Source: Nonomuraea cavernae
Lineage (GTDB): Bacteria > Actinomycetota > Actinomycetes > Streptosporangiales > Streptosporangiaceae
Assembly (NCBI RefSeq): GCF_014646355.1
Contig: NZ_BMNH01000001.1
Coordinates: 9,161-73,160 of the forward strand
Reading direction: 5' to 3'
DNA length: 64,000 bases
Shown here: one piece after another, positions 2,513 through 3,774 of the stretch
How positions within the stretch are numbered: position 1 is the first letter of the stretch
How the letters are laid out: each line of letters starts with the position of its first letter
Program-made: the position numbers and the translations under genes
The notes under the pieces: generated by a model
What the model saw: the letters and a program-made list of their open reading frames with translations, nothing else
What the model was told of the DNA's origin: nothing
Databases searched by the model: none

Positions 2513-2833
2513 TCAGTGCGCGCCGGCCAGGTTGAGGCCGACGATTCCCACGACGATGAGGGCGATCGAGGCGATCCGCACGAACGACGCGTTGTCCCCC
2601 ATGGCCAGCATGCCGACCACCGCCGTGCCCACCGCGCCGATGCCGGTCCACACCGCGTACGCGGTGCCGACGTCGAGGGATTTGAGCGCGTACGAGAGCA
2701 GACCGAAACTCAGCACGGCCGTGACGAAGAACGAGACCGACCACCACACCTGGGAGAACCCGTCGCTCAGCTTGAGCGACAGGGCCATGACGACCTCGAA
2801 GAGACCGGCGACGACAAGCAGGATCCAGGCCAT
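2513..2833 (-). CDS. gdx: Gdx/SugE-type SMR guanidinium exporter
   Basis: A 106-residue small multidrug resistance protein with four membrane helices. It matches the Gdx (formerly SugE) subgroup rather than EmrE: MAWILLVVAGLFEVVMALSL places the proton/substrate-coupling glutamate at E13, and the signature GTAYAVWTGIGAVG is intact. Gdx proteins are antiparallel homodimers that exchange guanidinium for protons. GGAGG lies 9 nt before the ATG. A guanidine-III riboswitch candidate sits in the 5' leader at 2869-2909, which independently supports guanidinium as the substrate. Confidence 0.93.
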   Translation of the reverse strand: MAWILLVVAGLFEVVMALSLKLSDGFSQVWWSVSFFVTAVLSFGLLSYALKSLDVGTAYAVWTGIGAVGTAVVGMLAMGDNASFVRIASIALIVVGIVGLNLAGAH

Positions 2834-2854
2834 GAGTGAAACCTCCGGCGAGCG

Positions 2855-2877
2855 AGACGACAGGTCGTGCGTCGTCT
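2855..2877 (-). promoter_or_regulatory. possible expression platform of the gdx riboswitch
   Basis: A perfect 7-bp inverted repeat: on the minus strand AGACGAC (2877-2871), a 9-nt loop, then GTCGTCT (2861-2855). The first arm is also the 3' pseudoknot strand of the riboswitch, so ligand binding and this hairpin exclude each other. The gdx ribosome binding site GGAGG follows shortly after. This geometry suggests a switch controlling access to the start region, but no pairing with GGAGG itself is proven. Confidence 0.45.
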
Positions 2878-2909
2878 TGGCTTTCCGGGTACGGCGCGTC
2901 TCGTCCGGG
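2869..2909 (-). promoter_or_regulatory. guanidine-III (ykkC-III) riboswitch candidate upstream of gdx
   Basis: Read on the minus strand, the 41-nt element runs CCCGGACGAG, ACGCGCCGTACCCGG, AAAGCCAAGACGACGC. It matches base for base most of the Thermobifida fusca guanidine-III riboswitch as I recall it (CCGGACGAGG...GCGCCGUACCCGG...CAAGACGGCGC). The two CCGG strands of helix P1 and the CAAGACG segment are conserved. The pseudoknot strand GCGCCGU faces ACGACGC, leaving one C/A mismatch. It sits about 36-76 nt before the gdx start codon, where a translational switch would act. Alternative: chance similarity, unlikely given the downstream gene. Confidence 0.85.
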
Positions 2910-2947
2910 AGCAGGGCTCTATCGAGGCAACGGCGGAGCGAGCCCGG

Positions 2948-3745
2948 TCATTCCCACCAGAGGGTGACCCAGCGGTCTTTCGGGACGGGCCACATGCCGA
3001 GGGAGAGCGCGGTCTCCGCCACCTCCGTCGCGAGCGACGGGTCGAGGCAGATGCGCTGGCAGGCGCTGGCCGCGAGCTCCTCGAGGGAGGAGAAGCGTTC
3101 GAGCGGCGCCTCCCGCTCCTCGACCTGCACGGCGTAGCCGAGCGCCGCCGCCAGCGCCACGCAGTCTTCGGCGATGGGCCTGACCGGGCGCTCGATGCCG
3201 TGGAAGTGCTGCCAGAGCGGCGCCATCCAGCTCATCGGATGGCGCTGCGGGAGCTCGATCACCACCCGGCCCCGGGTGCGGTCGTCGAGCGCGCGCAGGA
3301 AGGCGGCCAGGTCGGGCACGTTGTAGACGACGTGCGCGGCGATCGTCGCGTCGACCATGGGCACCTGGTCGGACACGTCGGGCCAGCGGCCCTCGACCGC
3401 CGTCAGGGCGACGCCCAGCTTGTCGGCCCGGGTGGCGAGCTCGGCCAGCATCGCGGGCGAGGTGTCGACGGCGTAGAGCTCGCCGAGGCGCTCGTGCAGC
3501 GGGAGCGAGGCGGCGCCGGTGCCCGCGCCCACGTCGAGCAGCGTGCCGCCTGGTGGCAGCGCCTCGGTGAGCCGGGCCATCGTGGGCCCGTCATCCGGGG
3601 CGGCGAGCGCCCAGTCGGTGCGCGTGGCGAAGCGGCCGGGCGAGTGGCCCCAGGGATCGACCGGGGCCTTGGCCATGATCTCCTCTGGAATGGCCCAGGA
3701 TTCCAGCCGCTCTCGCCAGCGCGTGGCGAGTTCTTCGGCATCCAT
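2948..3745 (-). CDS. class I SAM-dependent methyltransferase
   Basis: About 265 residues from MDAEELATRW; in-frame ATGs also occur at 3757 and 3766 and none has a clear ribosome binding site. The Rossmann-fold motif I is LLDVGAGTGAASLPL, followed by the acidic strand YAVDTSPAMLAEL that binds the SAM ribose. The C-terminal part (HPMSWMAPLWQHFHGIERP) is not of a substrate class I can name. It is divergent from the acyl-CoA dehydrogenase gene and shares its 5' region, including the repeated operator at 3775-3816. Substrate unknown. Confidence 0.82.
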   Translation of the reverse strand: MDAEELATRWRERLESWAIPEEIMAKAPVDPWGHSPGRFATRTDWALAAPDDGPTMARLTEALPPGGTLLDVGAGTGAASLPLHERLGELYAVDTSPAMLAELATRADKLGVALTAVEGRWPDVSDQVPMVDATIAAHVVYNVPDLAAFLRALDDRTRGRVVIELPQRHPMSWMAPLWQHFHGIERPVRPIAEDCVALAAALGYAVQVEEREAPLERFSSLEELAASACQRICLDPSLATEVAETALSLGMWPVPKDRWVTLWWE

Positions 3746-3774
3746 GAAGACGAGCATGCCACGCATATCGCTGG

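Follow-up and report, generated by a model that had tools for sequence, protein, structure and literature searches.

The guanidine-III riboswitch of Nonomuraea cavernae and the C/A position in its pseudoknot helix

Is the short leader in front of the gdx/sugE gene of Nonomuraea cavernae a guanidine-III (ykkC-III) riboswitch, an RNA switch for the toxic compound guanidine, and is the C/A mismatch in its pseudoknot a peculiarity of this RNA? We addressed both questions in a stretch of 64,000 nucleotides from contig NZ_BMNH01000001.1 (positions 9,161 to 73,160 of the forward strand), hereafter called the window, in which an earlier note had proposed such a riboswitch from the letters of the DNA.

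Identity and layout of the riboswitch and its gene

The assignment to the guanidine-III class was upheld by the covariance search with the Rfam ykkC-III model that the earlier note had suggested. Positions 2922-2866 of the reverse strand match the full RF01763 model with 51.4 bits (E = 9.8e-8), well over the gathering score of 36 bits, which is the curated cut-off of the family. This is the only gathering-level Rfam match within the 64-kb window, and a single RF01763 match was reported in the whole host genome. The extent of 2869-2909 given in the note held for the core but included one extra base at the 5' end, as nucleotides 1-41 correspond to 2908-2869 (numbers 1-41 follow the T. fusca crystal RNA throughout). 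The features of the locus are as follows.

2866-2922, reverse strand: guanidine-III riboswitch, the full RF01763 match with a small upstream hairpin, GAGCCCTGCTC (51.4 bits, E 9.8e-8)
2869-2908, reverse strand: aptamer core of 40 nt, the counterpart of nt 1-41 in the T. fusca crystal RNA (sequence alignment to T. fusca)
2885-2908, reverse strand: helix P1, CCGG 2908-2905 with CCGG 2888-2885 (sequence; positions after PMC5696562)
2898-2903, reverse strand: third strand C6-C11 (CGAGAC), in which C6 and G7 border the guanidine site and A10 (2899) faces pair 15-38 (sequence; roles after PMC5696562)
2869-2897, reverse strand: pseudoknot helix P2, GCGCCGU 2897-2891 with ACGACGC 2875-2869 (sequence)
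2853-2861, reverse strand: candidate competing element GTCGTCTCG, part-complementary to the third strand (CGAGACG, 2903-2897) and to the P2 3' strand (AGACGAC, 2877-2871), whose role we infer
2842-2846, reverse strand: Shine-Dalgarno sequence GGAGG, 8 nt ahead of the gdx ATG (sequence)
2513-2833, reverse strand: gdx/sugE, an SMR-family protein of 106 aa with Met16 (PF00893, 97.1 bits)
2948-3766, reverse strand: methyltransferase-domain gene, co-oriented, ending 39 nt before aptamer nt 1 (domain match)

The ligand contacts C6, G7 and G17 named in PMC5696562 are all present in the window RNA, as is the sequence ACGA, which according to PMC2864571 is perfectly conserved in guanidine-III RNAs. The strands for an H-type pseudoknot (P1 + P2) are also present, P2 with one C/A, and the RNA is placed in the 5' leader of the SMR gene, 35 nt separating the core from the gene start. 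Judged from its sequence, the window RNA has all the defining features of the guanidine-III family that a sequence can test and is a further member of an already known riboswitch family; taken alone, it amounts to one more guanidine-III riboswitch. It shares its ligand contacts, P1, P2 and a downstream transporter gene with the T. fusca RNA (PDB 5NWQ, PMC5696562), but its P1-P2 junction is one base shorter and it carries C15/A38, A10 and C11 where the T. fusca RNA has C15-G38, G10 and U11.

With regard to the gene behind the riboswitch, its description as Gdx-type proved sound in so far as the product of 2513-2833 is an SMR protein (PF00893, 97.1 bits). Its best sequence matches in the PDB, which bear the name 'Multidrug resistance protein, SMR family', are 6wk5 (Gdx-Clo) and 8vxu, and the best NCBIfam model is SugE with 121.8 bits, below the cut-off of 126. 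The residues E13, S42 and W62 of the Gdx-Clo / SugE exporters are kept, but the window protein has Met16 in place of the Trp16 of Gdx-Clo. Trp16 is conserved among Gdx proteins, and the W16G variant of Gdx-Clo still exchanges Gdm+, at a reduced level (PMC7695847). Among 226 SMR rows behind guanidine-III RNAs, position 16 is Met in 40 and Trp in 186. Met16 was found in 32 of the 33 same-genus rows (L249 has Trp), in 4/4 further rows from named Nonomuraea records, and in only 4 of the other 189 (Spongiactinospora twice, Actinomadura flavalba and Thermomonospora). As far as the sequence can tell, Met16 lowers the claim of a typical Gdx protein, not that of guanidinium export, which we regard as the putative function.

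Distribution of the C/A form

The C/A position noticed earlier in the pseudoknot is real: C15 (2894) lies opposite A38 (2872), the only non-Watson-Crick position of the window P2. A fully paired P2 in another register was considered and rejected, as by eye only the 1x1 C/A mismatch fits. In the Rfam alignment of the window RNA the C/A pair is marked ':' without 'v', which we read as a positive score for C/A in the model. Because the alignment treats C/A as a scoring pair, this form seems to be implicit in the curated Rfam family. In the T. fusca RNA, C15-G38 forms a base triple with the third-strand G10 (PMC5696562); the RNA of that paper is the C-G form, and the words 'mismatch' and 'A38' are absent from it. 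A literature search joining the guanidine-III riboswitch with mismatch found no paper.

The frequency of C/A was determined at loci from covariance searches and from a pattern scan. The covariance searches gave a match in 41 of 59 genomes ranging from genus to class relatives, in 51 of the 396 genomes of an evenly drawn sample of the actinobacterial phylum, and in 34/34 genomes behind the pattern loci (as chosen; the loci used are the best 30 of 35 matches). Myxococcota had a match in 61 of 195 genomes (loci being the best 30 of 65 matches) and Planctomycetota in 5 of 199. Matches were also obtained in 5 of 199 Acidobacteriota (4 over the cut-off), 3 of 398 Pseudomonadota (1 over the cut-off) and 3 of 194 Verrucomicrobiota (2 over the cut-off). 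The names of these five non-actinobacterial phyla were taken from the record titles of the loci on which the searches were centred. Altogether 161 loci were fetched, of which 149, the window's own included, were parsed by an anchor pattern; among the 12 unparsed, L058 lies above the threshold and several lie below it, and L189 and L190 have no strip.

Pair 15-38 is C/A in 112 of the 149 parsed loci, C-G in 29, U-A in 6, and U-G (L031) and G-C in one each. Above the cut-off the shares are 112/142 for C/A and 22/142 for C-G, or 65/92 and 20/92 when distinct aptamers are counted. The other pairs of P2 were Watson-Crick in 149 (16-37), 143 (14-39), 128 (13-40) and 129 (12-41) of the 149 loci. In the window's own genus 37 of 38 loci, window included, have C/A, in all 37 together with A10, and the remaining one has U-A. 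The evenly drawn actinobacterial sample gave a different picture, C-G being commoner (28 of 45 loci) than C/A (14 of 45), also above the cut-off (22/39 and 14/39).

Outside the Actinobacteria C/A prevailed. Among the best 30 of the 65 Myxococcota matches, 28 have C/A and 2 U-A. Planctomycetota, Acidobacteriota, Pseudomonadota and Verrucomicrobiota together have C/A in 12 of 13 parsed loci, 6 of the 13 being the same places as pattern loci. Over all parsed non-actinobacterial loci the figures are C/A 60/63, U-A 2/63 and C-G 1/63, and the sole C-G locus (L239) lies below the gathering score; for loci not chosen through the pattern scan the figures are 32/34 for C/A and 2/34 for U-A. In the pattern scan of named genomes, positions 10, 11 and 38 were left free. 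Among the 116 matches listed, A38 occurs 94 times and G38 22 times, C or U never, shares that are conditional because C15 and most of P2 were fixed in the pattern. Judged by record titles, all 22 of the G38 loci among these listed matches are actinobacterial, and C/A loci span Actinobacteria, Myxococcota, Proteobacteria, Planctomycetes, Verrucomicrobia, Acidobacteria and others.

Since these samples are uneven and their members related, we limit the claim to this: C/A is widespread, and it is the usual form both within the window's genus and among the sampled non-actinobacterial loci. The C-G form of the T. fusca crystal was found here above the threshold only in Actinobacteria. The notion that C/A is a deviation peculiar to the window RNA did not hold, given C/A at 37/38 same-genus, 94/116 listed pattern and 60/63 non-actinobacterial loci, and a rare variant arising through C/A is ruled out by the same-genus, pattern-scan and covariance-locus counts. 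What is gained beyond this locus is that C/A RNAs prove widespread, while the one guanidine-III structure paper found in our literature searches (PMC5696562) concerns the C-G form. This leads to a direct question about the mispaired form, namely its affinity, its ligand-only folding and its response to pH.

Base 10, pair 15-38 and the stability of P2

Base 10 and pair 15-38 are unevenly combined. Among 210 distinct rows in which the third strand is complete, A10 occurs 114 times and always with C/A; G10 occurs with C/A in 39 rows, with C-G in 35 (5 of these below the threshold), with U-A in 3 and with U-G in 1. The resulting table (A10/C-A 114, A10/C-G 0, G10/C-A 39, G10/C-G 35) gave a Fisher p of 1.2e-17 for 196 of the 210 distinct rows, the rows being related. 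With distinct aptamers above the cut-off plus the pattern loci listed, the same table reads 68, 0, 9 and 20 of 103 (4 of the 116 listed pattern loci lie too close to an end for the wider parse). We rejected this table as proof of coupling, given the relatedness of the rows and a tree with too few independent changes. The tree, built from 189 SMR proteins, contains a single supported independent pair with a difference at position 38 (2 when all branches are counted) and four such pairs for position 10 (8 when all are counted), so few that a sign test of coupling between the two positions was impossible. The minimum number of changes on this tree is at least 4 for position 38, at least 7 for the whole pair 15-38, and 8 for position 10. 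As evidence for a retained mispair the tree was likewise set aside, since the pair, with 7 changes against 8, changes about as often as position 10 and the mispair is thereby not shown to be specially protected. On a simple reading from base chemistry, base 10 would touch base 38 at its Hoogsteen edge, A38 taking A or G and G38 needing the donor face of G. That A10 is seen only with A38, and G10 with A38 as well as G38, would agree with recognition of this edge by bases of the third strand.

The C/A is predicted to weaken P2. By nearest-neighbour rules and with an artificial GAAA loop, the energy of P2 is -5.8 kcal/mol for the window strands and -13.0 kcal/mol for the T. fusca strands, a loss of about 7 kcal/mol for the C/A helix taken as a simple duplex. 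Because of this weakness, a folded P2 with C/A probably needs the support of the third strand, and through it that of the ligand, more than its C-G counterpart in T. fusca does, which would make folding more ligand-dependent. C15/A38 is the usual state, in the genus and the other phyla sampled, of the base triple 10·(15-38) near the ligand site, and a protonated A+·C at 15-38 is a putative, possible way to build the pair.

One may suppose that the C/A is a protonated A+C wobble with a pKa raised by the triplex, in which case the C/A form would bind guanidine in a pH-dependent manner and the T. fusca form would not. An A+C pair is isosteric with U-G, and the single U-G seen at 15-38 (L031) as well as the wide occurrence of C/A would agree with such a wobble. 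However, C-G (29/149) and U-A (6/149) also occupy the position and are not isosteric with A+C, and as the SMR tree needs at least 5 changes for U-A and at least 4 for C-G, these Watson-Crick states have been reached repeatedly. Nor do the words 'mismatch' or 'A38' appear in PMC5696562, whose RNA is C-G, and we hold such a wobble with pH-coupled binding to be quite unlikely. A wider proposal is that the crystal structure represents a lineage-restricted form, and that in much of nature a functional C15/A38 is completed by A10 (or G10), with P2 only marginally stable without guanidine, perhaps as A+C. Control of the aptamer by ligand (and pH) would then differ from that of the T. fusca RNA; we judge this proposal unlikely.

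Switching, leader and neighbouring genes

The reading we favour, with a probability of about 0.88, is that of a standard guanidine-III riboswitch turning on a guanidinium exporter. Its family membership and gene association are observed, whereas ligand, fold and ON direction are taken from the literature, in which guanidine contacts G7, G17 and C6, and the folded state is proposed to make the ribosome-binding site accessible (PMC5696562). Guanidinium would accordingly bind G7 and G17 over C6 and draw the third strand (C6-C11) into the P2 groove, and the H-type pseudoknot stabilised in this way would raise gdx translation and possibly mRNA lifetime too. According to the review PMC12186494, Richards and Belasco 2021 reported protection of guanidine-III mRNA.

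Minimum-energy folding of the window leader revealed no clean ON/OFF switch; the mean unpaired probability of the Shine-Dalgarno sequence was 0.10 in the free leader as against 0.24 when the aptamer was masked. The fold predicted for the free leader pairs AGACGAC (2877-2871) with GUCGUCU (2861-2855). Complementarity between leader and aptamer was compared with dinucleotide shuffles in 157 rows after start detection, 7 below-threshold rows being excluded. Automatic start detection shortened some leaders, which makes the long and short groups differ from the list used for GTCTCG below, and the z values are overstated because the rows are related. For nt 1-11 both genus groups (n = 14 and 17) exceeded the shuffles with z 4.2, compared with -1.2 in Myxococcota, 0.1 in the G38 group and 1.1 in the Streptomyces-like group. 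Within the genus groups no excess was found for the P2 5' strand (z -1.5 and -4.2) or the P1 3' strand (z -0.4 and -1.1). For nt 31-41 the values were 2.7 and 3.1 in the genus groups, 3.4 in the 'other' group, 2.2 in the G38 group, 1.5 in Myxococcota and 1.2 in the Streptomyces-like group. Of the 22 genus leaders that reach at least 30 nt, 13 contain the motif GTCTCG, whereas none of the 11 shorter leaders does (5 loci in which no start was found are excluded). These sequence comparisons suggest that the downstream element may take part in a competing OFF helix in the genus, other clades showing little excess.

Such a helix could hold either of two strands. If the downstream element held the third strand, guanidine would release that element, and with it the stretch ahead of the Shine-Dalgarno sequence. 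The excess for nt 1-11 in both genus groups, confined as it is to that segment when compared with the P2 5' and P1 3' strands, and the 13 of 22 longer leaders with GTCTCG point this way. Against it, the motif is missing from all 11 shorter genus leaders, Myxococcota and the G38 group have no excess and the Streptomyces-like group little, the complementarity comes from related rows, and in the fold predicted for the window leader the element pairs with the P2 3' strand instead. Covariation cannot support the helix either, because the third strand hardly varies; we treat this version as tentative, with the odds leaning against it. The predicted AGACGAC/GUCGUCU helix could conversely mean that A38 is kept for the OFF state, as an A-U pair with the downstream GUCGUC near the Shine-Dalgarno sequence, and not for the aptamer. 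The excess for nt 31-41 in the genus and 'other' groups would be in line with this, but the G38 group is in excess as well, Myxococcota and the Streptomyces-like group keep C/A yet show a weak excess, and the same inflation of z by relatedness applies, so that we find this very unlikely. By analogy, the aptamer might also act mainly as a folded obstacle that shields the mRNA from ribonuclease scanning, with no expression platform. The protection reported for guanidine-III mRNA (Richards and Belasco 2021, cited in PMC12186494) favours this, and short leaders are compatible with it; as the main function of the window RNA we consider it rather doubtful.

The same-genus copies resemble the window in having A10 with C/A (37/38) and, in 20 of 38 loci, a matching methyltransferase C-terminal motif ahead of the riboswitch; they differ in leader length and in the downstream gene, and five precede a gene for an MBL-fold hydrolase. 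In these five genomes (L278-L282, the same places as L252, L254, L255, L250 and L248) the guanidine-III RNA lies directly before a conserved hydrolase of about 295 aa. Against PF00753 the protein at L278 scores 42.1 bits, and no NCBIfam model scored over its cut-off. The window's genome has one distant match to it, with 33% identity. A literature search, judged by titles and the starts of abstracts, found no link between guanidine-III RNA and an MBL-fold hydrolase; from its gene position, a guanidine-linked enzyme is possible.

Elsewhere in the window, 1512-1979 on the forward strand encodes a Polyketide_cyc2 / START-like protein with a weak NCBIfam toxin-model match (Rv0910 family, 30.8 bits, cut-off 100), probably reflecting a shared fold alone. 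Among guanidine-III loci of other genomes, that of L036 precedes the gene of a Sm_multidrug_ex membrane protein (PF06695, 51.6 bits), as do L053 and L260 by eye. The RNAs at L101 (the same place as L186), L108, L110 and L132 (Asticcacaulis by title) stand before a protein in which the SMR motif was not found and which by eye resembles an EamA-type transporter. At L041 a guanidine-III RNA lies upstream of an arginase-family gene (PF00491), which fits the published speB association.
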